DNA of 42,927 nt from Propionibacteriaceae bacterium. GTDB lineage: Bacteria > Actinomycetota > Actinomycetes > Propionibacteriales > Propionibacteriaceae. Position 1 is the first letter of the stretch, and each line of letters opens with the position of its first letter. Under the pieces are notes generated by a model. The model saw only the letters and a list, made by a program, of their open reading frames with translations, ran no database searches and had not been told where the DNA came from. Made by a program: the position numbers and the translations under genes. Of this stretch, positions 3,621-39,651 are shown piece after piece. The stretch covers positions 1 to 42,927 of the forward strand of contig JADLEH010000104.1 in assembly GCA_020846255.1 (NCBI GenBank). Direction: 5' to 3'.

Positions 3621-5204
3621 ATGGCAACATTCGTGACCGTCCCCACCGCGGCCGGACTGGTGCGCGGACTCGACTCCTGCGGGGTCACCCGCTTCCTCGC
3701 CGTCCCCTACGGGGAGTCGACCGGGGGTCAGCGGCGGTTCCGCCCGCCGGTACCCAAGGAGCCCTGGACCGGGGTGCTGGACGCCCTGGAGTTCGGCCCG
3801 GTAGCGCCGCAGAACGACTTCCGGATCGGCGGCAGCAGTCGCGGCGACCGGATGATCGGAAGCCTCAATCCTCGCGGCGGTTCCCCCACCGAAGCCGGCC
3901 CGACCAGCGAGGACTGCCTCTCGCTGAACATCTGGGCACCATCGGAGAACGGGCGGTCGAGGCCGGTCCCGGTGATGGTCTGGCTGCACGGCGGGGCCTA
4001 CCTGACCGGCTCGGGGAACGAAACCGCGTTCCACGCCGACGTGCTCGCCGAGCGGGAGAACGTCGTCGTGGTGGCCGTCAACCACCGGCTCGGCCTGCTC
4101 GGCTTCTGTCCCTGGGAGGACTACGACCCGACCGGCTACGCCGGGGCCGGGGTCGCCGGCATGCTCGACATCGTCCTCGCGCTCGAGTGGGTACGGGACA
4201 ACATCGCAGCCTTCGGTGGTGACCCGGGGAACGTGACCGTCTTCGGGCAGTCCGGCGGCGGCGCCAAGACCGCCAACCTGCTGGCCATGCCGAACGCGCG
4301 CGGCCTCTTCCACAAGATCATCATGCAGTCGCCGTCCTCGCCGAGCCTGCCGCTGAAGGAGGACCACTCCCGGATCGCTGCCCTCGCCGCCGAGGAGCTG
4401 GGCATCGATGCCGGGAACCTCGAGCGCCTCGCGGAACTGCCCGTCGGGCAGATCCTCCAGGCCCAGCGCACGGTCGAGCAGCTCGTCGATCCGGGCCGGG
4501 TGCTGTTCAGCCGCGGACGTCCGCAGCTGCGGATCGGCCCCTACCGGGACGGGGTCCACATCGCCGGTGACTTCTACTCCGCCGACATCCAGCCCTGGGC
4601 CGCAGGCATCCCGGCCATCGTCGGTTCCGCTGCACACGAGTACTCGATGAAGCTGTGCAGCCGCGACGACTACCCGGACGCGACCGACGAGCTCGTCGCA
4701 GCCGAGCTGGCTGCAGAACTTGGCGACCAGGCCGCGGCCATCGTCGCCGACTATGCCGCTCGTCACGACGAGCCGCCCCGGCTCCGCTGGGCGAGGATCT
4801 GTGCGGACATCAGCTTCCGGGGAGTCGCCATCCGGACCGCTGACCACCTGGCCGCGTGCGGCCTGACGGTGTTCGAGTACGTGTTCAACCAGCCGACAGA
4901 CATCCTCGACGGGATGCTCGGTTCCTGCCACAGCCTCGACCTGGCCTACACCTTCGGAACGGTCGATCGGATTCCGATGACCGGCCGGGTGCCTGGCCGA
5001 CACCAGGTCTCGGAGCACATCATGGACGCCTGGGCTCGCTTCGCGCGCACCGGGGATCCCAATGGTGGCTCCCTTCCGGCCTGGCCCGCTTGGTCGCCGG
5101 CGGAGGCCCGACTGCTGCTCATGGAAACCGCCCCTGCCATTGTGTCAGCCGTCGATTACGCCCCGCTGGCGACCGAGCGGGGAGCGATGGCGATCCTGCC
5201 ATGA
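3621..5204 (+). CDS. type-B carboxylesterase, no signal peptide
   Basis: EDCLSLNIWAP, WLHGGAYLTGSG oxyanion region, nucleophile elbow FGQSGGG; alpha/beta hydrolase COesterase family. Confidence 0.9.
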   Translation: MATFVTVPTAAGLVRGLDSCGVTRFLAVPYGESTGGQRRFRPPVPKEPWTGVLDALEFGPVAPQNDFRIGGSSRGDRMIGSLNPRGGSPTEAGPTSEDCLSLNIWAPSENGRSRPVPVMVWLHGGAYLTGSGNETAFHADVLAERENVVVVAVNHRLGLLGFCPWEDYDPTGYAGAGVAGMLDIVLALEWVRDNIAAFGGDPGNVTVFGQSGGGAKTANLLAMPNARGLFHKIIMQSPSSPSLPLKEDHSRIAALAAEELGIDAGNLERLAELPVGQILQAQRTVEQLVDPGRVLFSRGRPQLRIGPYRDGVHIAGDFYSADIQPWAAGIPAIVGSAAHEYSMKLCSRDDYPDATDELVAAELAAELGDQAAAIVADYAARHDEPPRLRWARICADISFRGVAIRTADHLAACGLTVFEYVFNQPTDILDGMLGSCHSLDLAYTFGTVDRIPMTGRVPGRHQVSEHIMDAWARFARTGDPNGGSLPAWPAWSPAEARLLLMETAPAIVSAVDYAPLATERGAMAILP

Positions 5205-5245
5205 CCACCACCCGATACACCCTCAACCACAGAAGGACCCCAGCC

Positions 5246-6739
5246 ATGGACTCCCGACCGCATCACCTGCTCGTGGACGGGTGCGATGAAGCCGGCGGCG
5301 GGCCCCTGCTCCAGCTGGTGAACCCGGCCACGGCCGAGGTGTTCGCCACCTGCCACAGCGCCGACGCCAGCGACATCGACCGGGCGGTCCACTCCGGTCG
5401 TGAGGTCTTCCGCCGGGGCGAGTGGAGCGAGCTCTCCATCCACCGGCGGGCCCGCGTCCTCAATCGGTTCGCCGACCTGATCGAGGCCGAGATGGGGGAG
5501 CTCTACCACCTGGAGACCCAGAACAACGGTCGCCCCCTCACCGAGACCAGGGCCCAGGTCACCCGGCTCCCGGAGTGGTACCGGTACAACGCCGCGCTGC
5601 TGCTGGCCAGCCGGGATTCGGTGGTGCCGATGGCCGGGGAGTACCACTCCTACACCTCCCGGTTCCCGCTCGGCGTCGTCGGCATCCTCTCCTCCTTCAA
5701 CCATCCGCTGATGATCGCCTCGAAGAGTCTCGCCCCGGCGCTGGCAACCGGGAACAGCGTCGTGCTGAAGCCTTCGGAGCTGACGCCGCTGACCGCGCTG
5801 ATCATTGGTCGCCTTGCGCTTGAGGCAGGCATCCCCCCCGGCGTCCTCAACGTCGTGCCGGGCCTCGGTCCGGTGGCCGGAGCGGCCCTGGTCGAGCATC
5901 CGGACGTGGCCAAGGTGGTGTTCACCGGCGGCACCGAGCCCGGCCGCGGGGTGGCCGTCGCTGCGGCCCGACGTTTCGCCAAGGCGACGGTTGAGCTCGG
6001 CGGGAAGACCCCGGTTCTCGTGTTCGACGACATCGACCCGGAGGTGTCCGCACGCGGGGCGGCCTTCGGCGGCTTCATCGGGGCCGGGCAGACCTGCATC
6101 GCCGGCACCCGCATCCTGGTCAAGGAGACGGTCTACGACCAGTTCGTGGCGGCCCTGGTGGCGCAGGCGCAGCAGATCCGGGTCGGCGATCCCACCAGCG
6201 CAGCCACCCAGCTCGGCCCGGTGATCTCGGCCGCTGCCCGGCAACGCATCCTCGACTTCGTCAAGACCGGGGTGGCCGAAGGGGCCCGGCTCGCCACCGG
6301 CGGGGTCCCGGTCCCGGTGCCCGGACTGAGCGGCTTCTTCGTCGCCCCGACCGTCCTGGCCGACGTCAGCAACGACATGCGGGTGGCGCGGGAGGAGATC
6401 TTCGGTCCGGTGGTGGTGGTGATCCCGTTCAAGGACGAGGCCGACGCCATCCGGAAGGCCAACGACTCCCGCTACGGCCTCGGGTCGTCGGTCTGGACCA
6501 GGGACGTCGCCAGGGCGCACCGCGTCGCCGGCCGGCTCGAGCACGGGATCGTCTGGATCAACGACCACCACCGGCTCGATCCGTCGTCGCCCTGGGGTGG
6601 TGTCCGGGAGAGCGGCTATGGCCGCGAGGGGGGCGTGGAGTCGTTCAACGACTTCACCCACATTCGCAGCATCACTGTGAGGACCGCGGACTCCGACATC
6701 GACTGGTACGGCGGCGTCGCCGTCGACCGACTCAACTAG
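5246..6739 (+). CDS. NAD(P)-dependent aldehyde dehydrogenase (alternative start 5201 overlapping the esterase stop)
   Basis: VELGGKTPVLVF, GAGQTCIAGTRILV catalytic Cys, EEIFGPVVVV motifs. Confidence 0.92.
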   Translation: MDSRPHHLLVDGCDEAGGGPLLQLVNPATAEVFATCHSADASDIDRAVHSGREVFRRGEWSELSIHRRARVLNRFADLIEAEMGELYHLETQNNGRPLTETRAQVTRLPEWYRYNAALLLASRDSVVPMAGEYHSYTSRFPLGVVGILSSFNHPLMIASKSLAPALATGNSVVLKPSELTPLTALIIGRLALEAGIPPGVLNVVPGLGPVAGAALVEHPDVAKVVFTGGTEPGRGVAVAAARRFAKATVELGGKTPVLVFDDIDPEVSARGAAFGGFIGAGQTCIAGTRILVKETVYDQFVAALVAQAQQIRVGDPTSAATQLGPVISAAARQRILDFVKTGVAEGARLATGGVPVPVPGLSGFFVAPTVLADVSNDMRVAREEIFGPVVVVIPFKDEADAIRKANDSRYGLGSSVWTRDVARAHRVAGRLEHGIVWINDHHRLDPSSPWGGVRESGYGREGGVESFNDFTHIRSITVRTADSDIDWYGGVAVDRLN

Positions 6740-6744
6740 GACGG

Positions 6745-7470
6745 GTGACGATGACGACCAACACGGCGGTGGAAGGTCTCCGGCTGCGGGCCCAGGGGCC
6801 GTTGCTGGTGGCCACGCTGGAAGCTCCGGGCGGCAACCAGATGACAGCCGCGATGTGTGACGCGCTGGTCGCTGTCCTGCGCGACCCGCCGGAGGAAGCG
6901 CACGTCCTGCTCCTCGAGGCGCGGGGCGAGGCCTTCTGCCTCGGCCGGGAGCGGTCCGCGGCCACCCCTGAGGCGCTGCCGGCGGAAGTCGCCCGGCTGG
7001 TCGAGGTGAACTCCGCCCTTGCCGGCACGCGGCTGGTGACCGTGGCCAGGGTCCAGGGTGATGCAGCCGGCTTCGGAGCCGGGTTGGCGGCCCTGGCCGA
7101 TGTGTCGGTCGCGGTCGAGACCGCCAGCTTCTGGTTCCCGGAGATCGGCCTTGGGCTGGCCCCGACCCTTGTGCTCGCCTGGCTCGGACGCATGGTCGGA
7201 CGCCGGGAGGCGTTCTGGCTCACGGCCACCGGCGAGCACTTCTCCGCAGCGCGAGCGGCGCAGTTGGGCCTGCTCAACGAGGTGGTGGCTGACCTGCCTG
7301 CCCTCGACCGGGCGGTGGAGCGGCGGATCGAGCTGCTGCTGGGGCAGCCGGCACGCGTCCACTCCGAGATCCGCGCGATGTTGCGCTCGGCGACGGCGTT
7401 GTCACCGGACCAGGCCAATGAGCTGGCTGCGGACCGGTTGGTGATCGGGAGCCTCCGCCTGTCGCGATGA
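6745..7470 (+). CDS. enoyl-CoA hydratase/isomerase (crotonase-fold) family protein
   Basis: VQGDAAGFGAGLAALADVSVAVETASFWFPEIGLGLAP typical crotonase core; GRREAFWLTATGEHFSAARAAQLGLLNEVV. Confidence 0.85.
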   Translation: MTMTTNTAVEGLRLRAQGPLLVATLEAPGGNQMTAAMCDALVAVLRDPPEEAHVLLLEARGEAFCLGRERSAATPEALPAEVARLVEVNSALAGTRLVTVARVQGDAAGFGAGLAALADVSVAVETASFWFPEIGLGLAPTLVLAWLGRMVGRREAFWLTATGEHFSAARAAQLGLLNEVVADLPALDRAVERRIELLLGQPARVHSEIRAMLRSATALSPDQANELAADRLVIGSLRLSR

Positions 7471-7501
7471 GGACGGCCGACTGACTACGCCCTGGCCGGA
7501 G

Positions 7502-8548
7502 TCACCGGACGGTTATCGCAGCGGACCTGGCTCCGGTGGATTCCCTGGCGACGATCCGGAACTCCGGCTTGATCAGCCTCGGTGGGATCCGGTGATCGCC
7601 CTTCTCGTTGATGCGCTCGACGAGCAGGTCCACAGCTGTTGCCGCGATCGCCTCGCGTCCGGGGTCGACGCTGCTCAGGGACGGCACGGAGAAGCGGCTC
7701 TCGTCGATGTTGTCGAAGCCGATCACGGCCACATCGTCGGGGACGCGCAGCCCCGCCTCACCCAGGGCGCGCAGGGCGCCCAGAGCGAGGGTGTCGTTCA
7801 GGGCGAACAGCCCGTCGAAGGGGATCTCGTCGGCCAGCAGCCCCCGCATCGCGTCGGCGCCGTTCTCCCGGTGCCAGGGCGCGGCAACACGCACCAACCG
7901 CGGGTCCAGCGGGATCCCGGCGGCCTCGAGGGCTGCCCGGTAGCCCCGCACCCGGAGGTCAGCGGAGCGGACCTCCTCCTTGCCGTCGGGGTGGGCGCCG
8001 ATCACGGCTATCCGCCTGCGGCCGATCGAGATCAGGTGTTCGACAGCTGCGCGCGCCGAGGACCCGTTGTGCATGGTGACGTGGTCGGTGGGCCCCCCGA
8101 AGATCCGCTCCCCGAGCAGGACAACGGGGAAGGGGGTGTCCAGCAGCCCGCGGTCCTCCTGGCCCAATGCCATCGGGCTGAACAGCAGGCCATCGGTCAG
8201 GCGTACCCGCCCCCCGGTGAGGACCTCGATCTCCCTGGCCCGGTCGCCGCTGGTCTGCTCGACCACCACGCCCAGCTGCCGGCGCTCGGCGGCCCGGATC
8301 ACCGCGTCCGCAAGCTCAGCGAAGTAGTTCTGGCGCAGCTCGGGCACGGCCAGGCCGATCACGCCGGTGCGTCCAGAGCGCAGGCCCCGGGCGGAGAGGT
8401 TCGGCCGGTACTCGAGTTCCTCGATGGCCGTCAGCACCTTGCGGCGGGTCTCCGGCCGGACATGCGGATAGTCGTTGATGACGTTCGAAACCGTCTTGAT
8501 CGAGACGCCCGCGATCCGTGCCACATCGTGAATGGTCGGACTGCCCAT
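7502..8548 (-). CDS. LacI-family transcriptional regulator
   Basis: N-terminal HTH PTIHDVARIAGVSIKTVSNVINDYPHVRPETR plus periplasmic-binding-like effector domain. Confidence 0.95.
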   Translation of the reverse strand: MGSPTIHDVARIAGVSIKTVSNVINDYPHVRPETRRKVLTAIEELEYRPNLSARGLRSGRTGVIGLAVPELRQNYFAELADAVIRAAERRQLGVVVEQTSGDRAREIEVLTGGRVRLTDGLLFSPMALGQEDRGLLDTPFPVVLLGERIFGGPTDHVTMHNGSSARAAVEHLISIGRRRIAVIGAHPDGKEEVRSADLRVRGYRAALEAAGIPLDPRLVRVAAPWHRENGADAMRGLLADEIPFDGLFALNDTLALGALRALGEAGLRVPDDVAVIGFDNIDESRFSVPSLSSVDPGREAIAATAVDLLVERINEKGDHRIPPRLIKPEFRIVARESTGARSAAITVR

Positions 8549-8759
8549 GGTCCTCCATCTGGAATCTGGCTGGATCGGTCACCCCGAATCGCTTTCACCT
8601 TACAGCCGACCCTGCCACCGGGGTGCACGCTGGTTGCGGCCGGGTGGCCGCCACCAGCGGCGCGTCCGGGCACCGGGTGGGAGCAGCTCAGCGCAGCCGG
8701 GCGCGCGCGACCCGGAGCATCCGGCGAACCTGCATGCGATGTTGCTTTCCGACCCGGGC

Positions 8760-33290: not shown

Positions 33291-33929
33291 CTATCCAGCC
33301 GGGCGTTCCTCGGTGACCAGCGACCGCAGCACCGCTGCCAGCTGCTGGCGCCGCGGGCCGTCGTCGGGTTCGAGGCCGTGCAGCAGCGCTGAACTGCCGC
33401 TGTGGGCATAAACGGCATGGAGCAGGTCGATCGCCTGTTCGATGGGCACGAGGAGCCGGGCCCCGACGCGCTCGACAGCACTCTGGAGCAGTTCGCCGAT
33501 CTGGACGATCATCTCGTCGTTCAGGTTGAGGAAGGCCGGCCGGATGGCGGGGTTCCGGATCGCGTAGAGCCGCAGCTCGAGACCGGTGACGAGGTCCTCT
33601 GTGGTTCGCGGCTGGACGGCCATGAAGACGCTCAGGGCCGAGTCGACGAGTTCCTCGATGCACGAGGCCCCCAGCACCCCCGAGCGCAGGGCCTCGACAG
33701 CCTGCTGCGTCGCCGACAACTCGCGGGCGGCCTGGCGGTTGAGCACGGCGAGGCAGAGTTCGTCCTTGTCGGCGAAGTTCGAGTAGAACGCGCCCCTGGT
33801 GAACTCGGCGCGCTCACAGATCTCCTCGACGCTGGCGCCGAGGACTCCCTTCGCCGCGAACAGCGCGACCGCCGCGTCCATCAGCTTCTCGCGGGTCTGC
33901 GTGCGCCGAGGCGTCAGCGTGTGGGCCAT
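33291..33929 (-). CDS. TetR-family transcriptional regulator
   Basis: TREKLMDAAVALFAAKGVLGASVEEICERAEFTRGAFYSNFADKDELCLAVL. Confidence 0.94.
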   Translation of the reverse strand: MAHTLTPRRTQTREKLMDAAVALFAAKGVLGASVEEICERAEFTRGAFYSNFADKDELCLAVLNRQAARELSATQQAVEALRSGVLGASCIEELVDSALSVFMAVQPRTTEDLVTGLELRLYAIRNPAIRPAFLNLNDEMIVQIGELLQSAVERVGARLLVPIEQAIDLLHAVYAHSGSSALLHGLEPDDGPRRQQLAAVLRSLVTEERPAG

Positions 33930-33944: not shown

Positions 33945-33979
33945 TTGAATACGACTGTGTATTGAATACGATACTGTAT
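33945..33979. promoter_or_regulatory. tandem TetR operator candidate (TTGAATACGAnnnTGTAT x2)
   Basis: Two copies with 17-bp period, the second containing palindrome CGATAC-T-GTATCG, in the tetR/MMPL divergent intergenic region. Confidence 0.7.
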
Positions 33980-34016
33980 CGAGTCTTCCTCACCTGGCTT
34001 GGCCGAAAGGTTGCCC

Positions 34017-36713
34017 GTGTCTGCTTTCCTGTACCGAATCGGTCGAGCCTGCTACCGGGCCCGTGGCCGGGTGCTGGTCGCCTGGGCCGTGCTGCTGGTG
34101 GTGTTCGGTGGCCTGGCCGTGGCAGTGGGCGGCACCTTCGACGACGTCTTCGAGGTGCCCGGCGCCAGCTCCACGCAGGCGCTCAGCCAGCTCAAGGTCA
34201 CCTTCCCCGAGGCTGCGGACGCGTCCGCGACCGTCCTCATCAACGCACCTGTCGGCACCCGGCTCGAGGACGCGGACGTGCGGAGAGCCGTCACGGCCTG
34301 GGTGCAGCACGTCGAGCGGGTGCCCTTTGTGCGCGGCGTGATCGACCCCTACAACGAGAATGTGGACGGCCTGATCAGCTCCGACGGCGCCAGCGGCCGG
34401 GCGATGATCCGGGTGCAGGGCAGCGCTTCCACCATGACCGACGCCCAGCGTGAGGAACTCACCGAGGCCGCGGAGACACTCGAGGAGACGCTGCCCGGCT
34501 CGCAGGTACTGATCGGCGGCGAGATCTTCTCCATCCACGTGCCGCGCATCACCGTCGTCGAGGCGCTGGGCCTCGGGGTCGCGATCGTCGTGCTGGTGTT
34601 GACCCTCGGCTCGCTGGTCGCATCAATGATCCCGGTGGGCACGGCCATCGCCGGCGTGGGCATCGGCGTGCTGAGTGTGCAGATCGCCGCTGGCGTGATC
34701 TCGGTCAGCTCCACCACGCTGATGCTGGCGATCATGCTCGGCCTGGCGGTGGGCATCGACTACGCCCTGTTCATCATCTCCCGGCACCGCGACCAGCTGG
34801 CCACCGGCATGGAGCTCGAGGAGTCGGCGGCGCGGGCGGTGGGGACCGCGGGCTCTGCCGTCGTGTTCGCCGGCCTCACCGTGGTCATCGCCCTGGTCGG
34901 GCTGAGCATCGCCGGGCTGCCGTTCCTGACCGTGATGGGTGTCTTCGGAGCCCTCACCGTTGCGTTCGAGGTCATGCTGGCACTCACCCTGCTGCCGGCG
35001 CTGATGGGCTTCGCCGGTGAACGCCTTCGCCCCCGGCCTCGCAAGGTGCGTGCCGGCCGCGCCCCGAAGGCGCCCGGCGGGTTCAGCTTCGGTGCCTGGT
35101 GGGTGAAGCTGGTCACGGCCTGGCCCCTGGTCACGATCGTCATCGTCCTGGCCGGACTCGGCGGCCTCGCCTACCCGGCGAAGGACCTGCAGATGGCCCT
35201 GCCCACCTCCGGCCACTCGCTGCCCGGCACCCAGGACCGGGAGACCTTCGACGAGATCACGAAGAAGTTCGGCATCGGGTTCAACGGTCCGCTGATCATG
35301 ACCGTCGGCATCGTCGAGCTCGACGACCCGGTTGAGGCCCTTGACGGGATCAAGGCCGACGTCGAGGCGATGCCCGGCGTCCGGATGGTCGCCGCAGCCA
35401 CCCCGAACGCCAACGTCGACACCGGCATGGTGCAGATCATCCCGACCACCGGGCCCGACGACCCGGCCACCGCCGACCTGGTCGAACGCCTCCGCGAACG
35501 CCAGGACGAGTGGCAGCAGCGCTACGACGTGGTCACGGCTGTGACCGGCTTCACCGCCATCCAGATCGACGTGACCAACCAGCTCGAGGCCGCCCTGGTG
35601 CCGTTCGGCATCTTCGTCGTCGGGCTGTCGCTGGTGTTGCTGACCATCGTGTTCCGCTCGATCTGGGTGCCGCTCAAGGCGGCGCTGGGATACCTGCTGA
35701 GCGTGGCGGCAGCCTTCGGCGCCACGACCCTCGTGTTCAACCAGGGCTGGGCCAAGCAGGCGATCAACCTGCCCGAGACCGGCCCGGTGATCAGCTTCCT
35801 GCCGATCATCCTGATGGGCATCCTGTTCGGCCTCGCCATGGACTATGAGGTGTTCCTGGTCTCGCGGATGCGCGAGGAGTTCGTGCACGGCAACACCGAG
35901 CGCTCCGTCGAGGACGGTTTCGTCCACTCCGCGAAGGTCGTGGTTGCCGCCGGCCTGATCATGTTCGCGGTGTTCGCCTTCTTCGTGCCCAACGGAGAGG
36001 GCGCCATCAAGCCGATCGCCTTCAGCCTTGCCGTCGGGGTACTGCTGGACGCCTTCGTGGTGCGGATGACCCTTGTGCCAGCCGTGATGAAGCTGCTGGG
36101 CCGGCACGCCTGGTGGCTGCCCAGGTGGCTGGACGCCCGGCTGCCCGCCCTTGACATCGAGGGCGAAGCGCTCACCCGCCAGGTGCACCTGGCCGACTGG
36201 CCGGCGCCCGGGGACACGTCGGCGATCGTCGCTGCGGGCCTCACCGCTACCGCGGCCGGCCGGACCGTGTTCAGTGGGATCGACCTCAGCGTCCGGCCCG
36301 GTGAGGTGCTGGTCATCGAGGGTGAGCACGCCCAGCGCCGGGCCCTGCTGCTCGCCCTTGCCGGCCGGCTGAAACTCACCGATGGCAGGCTGAAGGTGCT
36401 CGGCCGGGTCCTCCCGGAGGAGGCCCCGGTCGTCCGCGGGCTCGCCCCGGTGCTCGGCCCGTCGGTGGCCCACTTCGGCCGCGTCCTGAGCCGGCAGCGC
36501 GGCGGGCTGGTCTGCGTCGACCGCGCGGACGAGCTCGGCGACGTCCAGGACCGCTCGCTGCGCCGTGCCCTCGGCGAACCCGCCGACCCAGACAACCCGA
36601 TCACCTGGGTGCTCGGCGTCATGCCCGGCTCCGATCTCGAGGCCATGCTGCCGGTGCCCTACCAGGTGCTCCGGCTGCCCTCGCACCTCGTTCTGGAAGG
36701 AGCGACCCGATGA
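34017..36713 (+). CDS. MMPL/RND-family transporter with C-terminal degenerate ABC-ATPase-like domain
   Basis: GTG start after GAAAGG RBS; two MMPL modules (LGLAVGIDYALFIISRHRDQL; GILFGLAMDYEVFLVSRMREE); C-terminal AAGLTATAAGRTVFSGIDLSVRPGEVLVIEGEHAQRRALLLALAGRLKLTDGRLKVLGRVLP. Confidence 0.92.
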   Translation: MSAFLYRIGRACYRARGRVLVAWAVLLVVFGGLAVAVGGTFDDVFEVPGASSTQALSQLKVTFPEAADASATVLINAPVGTRLEDADVRRAVTAWVQHVERVPFVRGVIDPYNENVDGLISSDGASGRAMIRVQGSASTMTDAQREELTEAAETLEETLPGSQVLIGGEIFSIHVPRITVVEALGLGVAIVVLVLTLGSLVASMIPVGTAIAGVGIGVLSVQIAAGVISVSSTTLMLAIMLGLAVGIDYALFIISRHRDQLATGMELEESAARAVGTAGSAVVFAGLTVVIALVGLSIAGLPFLTVMGVFGALTVAFEVMLALTLLPALMGFAGERLRPRPRKVRAGRAPKAPGGFSFGAWWVKLVTAWPLVTIVIVLAGLGGLAYPAKDLQMALPTSGHSLPGTQDRETFDEITKKFGIGFNGPLIMTVGIVELDDPVEALDGIKADVEAMPGVRMVAAATPNANVDTGMVQIIPTTGPDDPATADLVERLRERQDEWQQRYDVVTAVTGFTAIQIDVTNQLEAALVPFGIFVVGLSLVLLTIVFRSIWVPLKAALGYLLSVAAAFGATTLVFNQGWAKQAINLPETGPVISFLPIILMGILFGLAMDYEVFLVSRMREEFVHGNTERSVEDGFVHSAKVVVAAGLIMFAVFAFFVPNGEGAIKPIAFSLAVGVLLDAFVVRMTLVPAVMKLLGRHAWWLPRWLDARLPALDIEGEALTRQVHLADWPAPGDTSAIVAAGLTATAAGRTVFSGIDLSVRPGEVLVIEGEHAQRRALLLALAGRLKLTDGRLKVLGRVLPEEAPVVRGLAPVLGPSVAHFGRVLSRQRGGLVCVDRADELGDVQDRSLRRALGEPADPDNPITWVLGVMPGSDLEAMLPVPYQVLRLPSHLVLEGATR

Positions 36714-38737
36714 ACGTCGAGCACGTCAACTCCACTCCCGCCCGCTGGTACACCCTGCTGGGCCTGCTGCTGGTGCCGCTGCTCGTCGCCGGCGGCTTCC
36801 TGCTTGCCGGCGTGAACGCCGACACGCGGACGCACACCGTGAAGGCTGCCGTGGTCAACCTCGACGAGCCGGTGACCATCGAGGGCCAGTACACCCCGCT
36901 CGGCCGCCAGTTGACCGCCAACCTGGTCGACTCCGATCGCCAGGAGAACCTCACCTGGGTGCTCGAGAACGAGGAGGACGCCCGCGCCGGCCTTGCCACC
37001 GGCAGCTACGCAGCGATGGTCGTCATCCCGGAGAACTTCTCTGCCGCCGCCACCTCCTTCGCCAAGGAGGCGGACGAGGCGGAGCAGGCGACCATCCAGC
37101 TGCACACCTCCCCGGTGGCCGGGGTGGCTGACGCCACCTTGGGCAAGCTGGTGGCCAGCGAGGCCGCGATGATGCTGAACCAGACCCTCACCGAGGGCTA
37201 CCTCAAGCAGATCTACATCGGCTTCAACGACATGGGTGACCAGTTCGTCACCCTCGCTGACGGTTCCGGGGAGCTGGCGGACGGGGCCGAGGACCTCGCG
37301 AGCGGGCTTCGGGAAGCCAACGCCGGGGCATACCAGTTGGCAGACGGCACCCGGCAGCTCGCCGACGGGCTCGGCACGCTGGCCGGCAAGACGAAGTCGC
37401 TGCCCAAGGACGTCCGCAAGCTGGCAAACGGCACTGGGGACTACGTGCAGGGGGTGAACCAGCTGGTGACCCAGTCGGCCGAGGGCCAACAGACGCTGAT
37501 CGCGACCGTCAGGCAGTTCGAGGGCGGCGCGGGCCAGATGGCTGCCCAGTTCGGCGACCTGGGCTCCAACACCCAGCTCGTCCAGGGCGCGACCGCGGCC
37601 GCCGAGGGTGCAGCCGGCCAGGTCCCCTGCCCCGACTTCGGCGATCCCGTCACCCAGGCAGCGATGTGCCAGGCGTTCAAGGCCGGGCTGGCCGGCGGCG
37701 CGCAGGTGGGGGCGAGTGTCGGCATCGGGGCGGCCGGCGCGGCCGCCGAGCAGGGCACCCTCCAGTTCCAGGACGGCCTCACCCAGTTCCGCGCGGGCCT
37801 GGAGGCCGCGGCGACGGACAAGGACACAGCGGCCCAGCTCAAGCAGCTCGTCGCCGGGGGCAACAAGCTGGCCGACGGCACAGACGAGCTCGCCGACGGC
37901 ATGCCCGCCCTTGTGGACGGGATCGCGAAGGTGGCCGACGGCTCTGCCGGGCTGGCCACCGGGATGACGCAGTTCAGCGACGGCCTGAATGACGCCGCCG
38001 GTGGCAGCTCCCAGCTGGCCGACGGGATGCGCAAGCTCGCCGACGGCATCGCCGAGGGCAAGGACAAGCTGCCGAGCTACTCCAGGTCCGACCGGGAGAG
38101 CCTTGCCACAGTGGTGGCCGCCCCGATCGACACCGGCGCCCTCCAGGGGCTCGCCGATCCCGACCTGGGCTGGATCAGCCTGGTCCTGGTCCTTGCCCTC
38201 TGGCTGGGTGCACTTGCGACCTATGCCGTGGTCAAGGCGATCGGCTCCGGGTTGCTCAGTTCTGCCGAACCGACGGCGCTGCTGATCGCACGCTCGTTGC
38301 TGCCGGGGGTGGTCGTGGTCGGCGCCCAGGCGCTCGTTGTGGCCGGCCTCGGCCAGTTCGGGCTCGACCTGACAGCGCAGAAGTGGTTCGCGGTCGCCGG
38401 CGTGCTGCTGGTCGCCGGGATCACCTTCGTCGTGATCAACCACGCCCTGGTCGCCTGGCTGGGCGGTATCGGCCGGGTGGTCTCGGTGCTCCTCGCCGTG
38501 CTCACCGCGGCGGCTGCGCTGATCGGGACGGCGCCGGGAGTCTTCGCCGCGCTGCGCCCGTTCTCGCCGCTCACCCCGGCGCTGGACGCAGTGCGGGCCA
38601 TCGTGACCGAGTCGGCCGGGGCCACCACCTCGACCCTGACTTTGGTCGGCTGGCTACTGCTGGCGCTACTGGCCAGCTCGATCGCCGTCGCCCGCCGCCG
38701 GACGACGACGCTGACCGCAGTCCTTGCCGCCGCCTGA
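36710..38737 (+). CDS. YhgE/Pip family (ABC-2-like) membrane protein
   Basis: ATGA overlap with MMPL; N-terminal TM, VVNLDEPVTIEGQYTPLGRQLTANLV, repeated LADG segments, C-terminal TM cluster. Confidence 0.88.
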   Translation: MNVEHVNSTPARWYTLLGLLLVPLLVAGGFLLAGVNADTRTHTVKAAVVNLDEPVTIEGQYTPLGRQLTANLVDSDRQENLTWVLENEEDARAGLATGSYAAMVVIPENFSAAATSFAKEADEAEQATIQLHTSPVAGVADATLGKLVASEAAMMLNQTLTEGYLKQIYIGFNDMGDQFVTLADGSGELADGAEDLASGLREANAGAYQLADGTRQLADGLGTLAGKTKSLPKDVRKLANGTGDYVQGVNQLVTQSAEGQQTLIATVRQFEGGAGQMAAQFGDLGSNTQLVQGATAAAEGAAGQVPCPDFGDPVTQAAMCQAFKAGLAGGAQVGASVGIGAAGAAAEQGTLQFQDGLTQFRAGLEAAATDKDTAAQLKQLVAGGNKLADGTDELADGMPALVDGIAKVADGSAGLATGMTQFSDGLNDAAGGSSQLADGMRKLADGIAEGKDKLPSYSRSDRESLATVVAAPIDTGALQGLADPDLGWISLVLVLALWLGALATYAVVKAIGSGLLSSAEPTALLIARSLLPGVVVVGAQALVVAGLGQFGLDLTAQKWFAVAGVLLVAGITFVVINHALVAWLGGIGRVVSVLLAVLTAAAALIGTAPGVFAALRPFSPLTPALDAVRAIVTESAGATTSTLTLVGWLLLALLASSIAVARRRTTTLTAVLAAA

Positions 38738-38775: not shown

Positions 38776-39651
38776 CTAGCTGGCCTGGGCGTGGCCGCCG
38801 TCGGCCGCGTCCGGCCGGCTGTCGGTTTGCGGCATCGGGTCGGGCGGCAGCAGCGGCGGCCGGGGCTCATCGTTGGTCGAGTACTCGAGCTCAGCCGACT
38901 GGTCGGCAGCCAGCTGGGCCTGGGCTGCTGCTGCCCGGAGTGCGACCGCCCGGGCGAAGTCGGCCTGGGTCGGCATGCCGTAGGCGCGGGCGGTGGTGTC
39001 GTGCATCTCGACGACGTAGCGGTGCAGGCGCTCGGAGAACTGGTGCGCGATCTCCCCGGGCGCTGCCCGGAGCGGACGGCCGAAGACCACGTGCACGTGG
39101 GGGCGCCCCGGCACGGGCACCGTGGCCCCGTAGGGCATCGCGGCGTACGCGCCGACCAGGGCGATCGGCAGCACCGGCACGTTGCGGGAGATGCTGAGGG
39201 CAGCGGCGCCGGGCTTGAAACTCGCCATCGCCCCGGTGCGCGACCGGGTGCCCTCTGGGAACAGCAGCAGCGGGATGCCCTCGTTGAGCAGGACGCCGGC
39301 CATGCCGCGGCGGCCGCGCAGCCCCTGCCGCTCGACCGGGAACGAGTTGAAGAACAGGGCCGTGGGCAACGCCTTGTACCAGGAGTCGAAGAAGTAGTCC
39401 GAGGCAGCCCCGGCAGCGAGGTTCTTCGACAGCCGGCGCGGCAGCGAGCCGTAGATCAGCGGCGCGTCGAGGTGGCTGGAGTGGTTGGCGACCACGACGT
39501 ACGGCGGCTTCAGGCCGTCGAGGTTTCGCATCCCGTGGGTGTGCACGCTCAACGCGGACCAGATGTACGGCTTCATGACCAGGTGCTGCGCGACCAGGCG
39601 TGCCGCCGCCGGTCCGGCGGCCGAATACCTGCTCGTTCCCGGCTCAGTCAC
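38776..39651 (-). CDS. 1-acyl-sn-glycerol-3-phosphate acyltransferase (PlsC-like)
   Basis: VVANHSSHLDAPLIYG (HX4D) and LLLFPEGTRSRTGAMASFKPGAAALS. Confidence 0.92.
   Translation of the reverse strand: MTEPGTSRYSAAGPAAARLVAQHLVMKPYIWSALSVHTHGMRNLDGLKPPYVVVANHSSHLDAPLIYGSLPRRLSKNLAAGAASDYFFDSWYKALPTALFFNSFPVERQGLRGRRGMAGVLLNEGIPLLLFPEGTRSRTGAMASFKPGAAALSISRNVPVLPIALVGAYAAMPYGATVPVPGRPHVHVVFGRPLRAAPGEIAHQFSERLHRYVVEMHDTTARAYGMPTQADFARAVALRAAAAQAQLAADQSAELEYSTNDEPRPPLLPPDPMPQTDSRPDAADGGHAQAS

Follow-up and report, generated by a model that had tools for sequence, protein, structure and literature searches.

An MMPL-family exporter gene of a Propionibacteriaceae bacterium, located in the window analysed here (the whole 42,927-nucleotide stretch of contig JADLEH010000104.1, assembly GCA_020846255.1), encodes a protein whose C-terminal tail is, according to profile matches and structure prediction, an ABC nucleotide-binding domain (NBD) fold. 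This domain no longer carries the catalytic motifs of an ATPase, is, as codon comparisons show, kept under purifying selection and is followed by the gene for a YhgE/Pip protein. Sequence comparisons suggest as the probable history that an MMPL pump recruited an NBD–YhgE pair by fusion and that the ATPase motifs were then lost repeatedly.

The fusion protein, its YhgE neighbour and the upstream region

The 34017–36713 open reading frame (ORF) starts with GTG, with the sequence GAAAGG 6 nt upstream; an alternative TTG start at 33999 is possible, although less likely. Two MMPL modules were recognized in the 898-aa product, with the Pfam MMPL model matching over two stretches at 285.8 bits against a cut-off of 20.5, and alignment with MmpL3 placed an Asp-Tyr pair in each half of the pump, the equivalent pair in MmpL3 having a proton-relay role (PMC10171966). 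By these tested features, the Pfam domain and the Asp-Tyr pairs, the protein is classed as a member of the MMPL family for which proton-driven transport is predicted. The same genome encodes a second large MMPL protein (G000:C223; L002, L003) whose similarity to the window protein stops before the NBD.

The extension following the MMPL modules comprises about 160 residues, the sequence quoted in the original prediction corresponding to residues 739–898. Searched alone, this tail gave no match in Pfam, and with Pfam, PHROGs and single-sequence searches being empty or too weak, profiles and structure were used instead. NCBIfam gave weak but consistent ABC-ATPase matches over the first half of the tail (best 1.3e-5), and a profile built from 39 relatives matched solved ABC NBDs, namely EcfA1 (1.8e-6), CFTR and HmuV. 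The EcfA1 alignment was split into two pieces by a gap of some 55 residues at the expected place of the helical/signature subdomain. An AlphaFold2 model of the domain computed from the family alignment reached a pLDDT of 91.3 and a pTM of 0.87, and in a Foldseek search of the PDB it gave 927 matches at E ≤ 0.001, the top matches listed all being ABC NBDs, including FtsE, CbiO, MlaF and NosF, with a TM-score of about 0.6 on the query. In the wider family, the Pfam ABC_tran cut-off was passed by three members, a split NBD from the window's own genome, a Streptomyces-type split NBD and a Nocardioidaceae-type fused domain. The original claim of an ABC nucleotide-binding fold after the second MMPL module was thus upheld by the profile, AlphaFold2 and Foldseek, and the HMMER/Foldseek check proposed with it for residues of about 720–898 returned ABC NBDs by both routes.

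The following gene (36710–38737), originally described as encoding a YhgE/Pip ABC-2-like protein that overlaps the pump gene by ATGA, bore out that description. Its product exceeded the cut-offs of the NCBIfam model pip_yhgE_Nterm (TIGR03061; 110.1 bits, cut-off 96.15) and of ABC2_membrane_3 (PF12698; 48.9 bits, cut-off 31.6), and fell below that of the C-terminal YhgE/Pip model (TIGR03062; E 3.5e-19, 69.2 bits, cut-off 102.2), so that on these scores it is a divergent family member in its C-terminal half. The NCBIfam EsaA N-terminal model also matched weakly. The predicted structure, a moderate model dominated by the coiled coil (pLDDT 70.9, pTM 0.49), begins with one helix, continues into an ectodomain that contains a long coiled coil and ends in an ABC-2-like membrane bundle; it resembles KpsM and ABCG25 weakly, both being among its structural matches at E values of 0.24–0.86, which are not significant. 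Convergent with yhgE lies a gene for a PlsC-like acyltransferase (38776–39651, minus strand), which several relatives (L038, L039, L044, L065, L068, L071 and L076) have in the corresponding position.

A divergent gene for a TetR-family regulator lies upstream of the pump gene, separated from it by tandem dyads (Table 1). The pattern ATAC-N6-GTAT matched exactly once in the genome as a whole, with two weaker matches within the same stretch, and shuffling gave an expectation of 0.01 matches in the window. A looser form of the dyad preceded 45 of the 73 fused pumps and none of the seven unfused ones, and was absent from the 20 standalone NBD–YhgE loci, where the plus strand only was searched. This distribution supports one dedicated transcription unit, and its conservation points to the tandem dyads as a candidate autoregulated operator to which TetR may bind.

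Table 1. Features of the fusion locus, in window coordinates.
Feature	Position	Strand	Basis or remark
Divergent TetR-family regulator	33291..33929	-	Pfam TetR_N
Tandem ATAC-N6-GTAT dyads, candidate TetR operator	33948..33981	.	Between tetR and pump gene
GAAAGG, likely ribosome-binding site of pump gene	34005..34010	+	Sequence
MMPL (RND) exporter with C-terminal pseudo-NBD	34017..36713	+	ORF, 898 aa
Membrane and porter portion of the MMPL protein (residues 1-706), ending at MmpL3 TM12 boundary	34017..36134	+	phmmer alignment to MmpL3, E 6.3e-42
Asp248-Tyr249, first proton-relay-like pair	34758..34763	+	Aligned to MmpL3 Asp-Tyr pair
Asp609-Tyr610, second proton-relay-like pair	35841..35846	+	Aligned to MmpL3 Asp-Tyr pair
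ABC NBD-like domain, residues 737-898, without helical subdomain	36225..36710	+	Profile, AlphaFold2, Foldseek
Walker A remnant GEHAQRRALLLALAGR, residues 769-784, Arg774 on Lys column	36321..36368	+	Joint alignment
Walker B remnant LVCVDRADEL, residues 831-840	36507..36536	+	Asp retained; Arg in place of catalytic Glu
YhgE/Pip protein, 675 aa	36710..38737	+	ATGA overlap with pump stop codon

Distribution of the fusion and origin of its C-terminal domain

Of 198 Propionibacteriaceae genomes searched with the tail, 184 gave a match, and the weakest of these matches could be ordinary ABC proteins; most of the best matches listed begin inside the linker of ORFs of about 850–1200 aa and are thus fusions. 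Among the related loci that were fetched, 42 of 43 were of the fusion type. YhgE was found downstream of the fusion in all relatives with sufficient flank and a divergent TetR gene upstream in nearly all, and the distance from the pump stop to the YhgE start had a median of -4 nt over 33 loci, exceeding 13 nt in one. Searches at the order and class level extended the arrangement of fusion and YhgE to Nocardioidaceae-type, Kribbella-like and further families, the first two labels being inferred from kinship. Motif losses, fusion and gene order alike recur in dozens of relatives, which indicates more than chance, and no description of an MMPL–NBD–YhgE system was found in the open-access papers searched. 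A single ORF joining all three parts in Nigerium massiliense (L039, 1876 aa) was rejected as a frameshift or sequencing error because, in the region 8569–8743, the frame is shifted by a short duplication and the normal NBD tail, with its stop overlapping the YhgE start, runs on in another frame.

YhgE genes without a fused MMPL were sampled at 20 actinobacterial loci (L141–L160), one of them from the window's own genome, and at two plasmid loci. A homologous standalone NBD was encoded directly upstream of YhgE in all 20, the last one being recognized by profile, and no MMPL was detected near any of them; the plasmid loci, from Rhodococcus and Arthrobacter, agreed, giving 22 out of 22. In a search of a small database, the profile of the standalone NBDs matched the window protein (54.9 bits, E 3.8e-17); by sequence, the fused domain and the standalone YhgE-linked NBDs share ancestry. 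The standalone proteins form a family of atypical ABC ATPases in which the signature column never held LSGGQ and no LSGGQ-like motif was found at the expected spacing from Walker A. The pair from the window's own genome (L157, contig C144) consists of an NBD at 7608–8375 on the minus strand, with an intact GxxGxGKT loop and without LSGGQ, and a YhgE at about 5070–7517. Beyond the actinobacteria, neither an NBD nor an MMPL adjoined YhgE in four annotated loci of Bacillota and Deinococcota, those of Deinococcus (L163), Roseburia (L164), Latilactobacillus (L165) and Listeria (L166), which suggests that YhgE is not always in need of either and that the NBD–YhgE partnership may be specific to actinobacteria.

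Some fused domains retain an intact Walker A. These include five Nocardioidaceae-type loci (e.g. GPSGSGKT) in which the helical region is present, two Kribbella-like fusions (GYGSVGKS/T) in which it is deleted and one further fused lineage (GPPGTGKT). Their existence implies that much of the decay came after the fusion, while LSGGQ is missing from every family member seen, whether split or fused, and its absence probably predates the fusion. The seven unfused pumps grouped together (100/100) in a phylogeny of the MMPL part, whose root is not established, as a single fusion would allow, and the fusions with an intact Walker A required three changes of state. The original prediction that the pump had simply acquired a non-catalytic NBD is therefore corrected: with a standalone NBD beside YhgE in every sampled actinobacterial locus without an MMPL, the pump appears to have captured the NBD of an NBD–YhgE pair. 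The link that it drew between the domain and YhgE was borne out at the evolutionary level as well, the standalone homologues being the upstream neighbours of YhgE in actinobacteria.

Loss of the ATPase motifs and possible roles of the domain

In the window domain, the Walker A consensus GxxGxGK(S/T) is replaced by GEHAQRRA in a loop that is one residue short, and the joint alignment places an Arg on the Lys column. The Walker B-like remnant LVCVDRADEL retains its Asp and has an Arg in place of the catalytic Glu, and the region bearing the LSGGQ signature, the helical subdomain, is absent in both the EcfA1 profile alignment and the joint alignment. These results agree with the original reading of the motifs (Walker A replaced by GEHAQRRAL, no LSGGQ, a remnant of Walker B). 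Judged by Walker A, LSGGQ and the catalytic Glu, all three of which are lost, the domain would not be classed as an active ABC ATPase, and ATP binding has probably been lost. None of the 38 Propionibacteriaceae fusions in the alignment retained the catalytic motifs; LSGGQ-like strings in two fused proteins (L039 and L053) lay outside the signature column and were taken as chance.

We give about an even chance to a TetR-controlled exporter in which an MMPL pump carries a pseudo-ATPase NBD that tethers the ABC-2-like YhgE. The pseudo-NBD would sit on the cytoplasmic side, after the last transmembrane helix of the pump, and would dock YhgE, the product of the next and probably translationally coupled gene, in the way that its standalone relatives presumably dock on YhgE. 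Descended, as proposed, from the partner in the actinobacterial NBD–YhgE pairs, the domain would have retained its partner-binding surface. Proton flow through the MMPL part could have replaced ATP hydrolysis after the fusion as the energy source of the complex, so that the catalytic motifs could be lost while the fold was kept. The coiled-coil ectodomain of YhgE would, if transport is outward, extend the export path or pass the substrate into the cell wall, and by analogy with MMPL proteins this substrate would most likely be a lipid, a glycolipid or a toxic amphiphile. The reading is weakened by the YhgE loci of Bacillota and Deinococcota that have neither neighbour, by the moderate YhgE model with its non-significant ABC-2 matches and by the near-invariant Walker A Arg discussed below. 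A true RND/ABC hybrid, in which the proton-driven MMPL part drives YhgE and the captured NBD passes on force or position and no longer hydrolyses ATP, is doubtful.

The Lys column of Walker A bears on whether the domain, instead of being a tether, senses a ligand and so regulates the pump. Arg occupies this column in 37 of the 38 Propionibacteriaceae fusions (R774 in the window; Val in one) and in 14 of 19 aligned standalone relatives (Lys in four and Gln in one), and such near-invariance suggests that the site may still do something, possibly the binding of a nucleotide or another phosphate ligand by the conserved Arg; the cytoplasmic C-terminal domain of MmpL3 is a site of regulation (PMC10171966). 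However, G, A, V, L, D, E or P is found on the same column in other fused lineages, and the shortened P-loop together with the lost catalytic Glu makes ordinary ATP use unlikely, so that we regard a sensor as unlikely. The domain could also serve the MMPL part only, as a scaffold for stability, localisation or oligomerisation, with YhgE a co-regulated neighbour that it does not contact. Its position indeed matches that of the C-terminal domain which MmpL3 uses for localisation and protein contacts (PMC10171966). The unfused homologues, however, adjoin YhgE and not an MMPL in 22 loci, which makes YhgE the older association and a purely MMPL-directed role quite improbable.

Asymmetric ABC transporters are heterodimers with one working ATP site, and the pseudo-NBD might pair in trans with an intact NBD such as the standalone protein of its own genome, whose GxxGxGKT loop is preserved. 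Such pairing has little likelihood, as the window domain has no helical subdomain to provide the opposite half-site, the standalone NBD also lacks LSGGQ and the two pairs lie on different contigs. In ten pairs of sequences, the domain gave dN/dS values of 0.07–0.36 (Nei-Gojobori), with several G, P and R positions invariant or nearly so, and in most pairs it has changed more quickly than the pump. A decaying relic without function, as the faster evolution and the catalytic motifs eroded in many lineages might suggest, is already disfavoured to the point of being barely credible by these dN/dS values and invariant positions, by the high-confidence predicted fold and by the retention of the domain throughout one bacterial family.

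Significance and relation to known systems

RND and ABC transporters are commonly viewed as distinct solutions, each with its own energy source. A fusion conserved among relatives that joins an ABC motor stripped of its catalytic motifs to a proton-driven pump with an ABC-2-like partner would constitute a natural experiment in the swapping of energy sources, of which intermediates of decay with an intact Walker A are still alive in relatives. The tether proposed above suggests that one type of pump re-used the motor of another as a connector; if the hybrid reading were true, an ABC-like module would have exchanged ATP for the proton motive force as its source of energy. The locus also offers a lead to the role of YhgE/Pip, with an NBD as its partner in actinobacteria and, in the fused form, a named transporter beside which YhgE probably works.

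The closest solved relatives by sequence are MmpL3 and the cluster II MmpL exporters of the RND superfamily (MmpL3, E 6.3e-42), which have the Asp-Tyr pairs in common with the window pump. MmpL3 also carries a cytoplasmic C-terminal domain after TM12, which is predicted to be disordered (PMC10171966), whereas that of the window pump is predicted to be a folded ABC NBD. The window pump is not an MmpL3 equivalog, scoring 156.5 bits against a cut-off of 1400, and has YhgE as its partner in place of the mycobacterial partners. Canonical ABC NBDs (FtsE, EcfA, CbiO, MlaF and NosF) share with the window domain the core fold, the Walker B strand with its Asp and the position of the P-loop helix, but the window domain lacks the Walker A Lys, the helical/signature subdomain and the catalytic Glu and is fused to an RND pump. 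The actinobacterial standalone NBDs, which carry no annotation beyond “ATP-binding cassette domain-containing protein” (e.g. on Rhodococcus pLRE138), belong to the same profile family, have the same YhgE neighbour, likewise lack LSGGQ and mostly have Arg in Walker A; they differ in being encoded by a separate gene, in their full length with the helical region and in having no MMPL nearby. The YhgE/Pip, YueB and EsaA proteins of Bacillota share the YhgE/Pip N-terminal domain with the window YhgE, a domain described as having no known function (PMC4999554), but belong to phage receptor or type VII secretion settings, and the YhgE loci examined there have no NBD neighbour.
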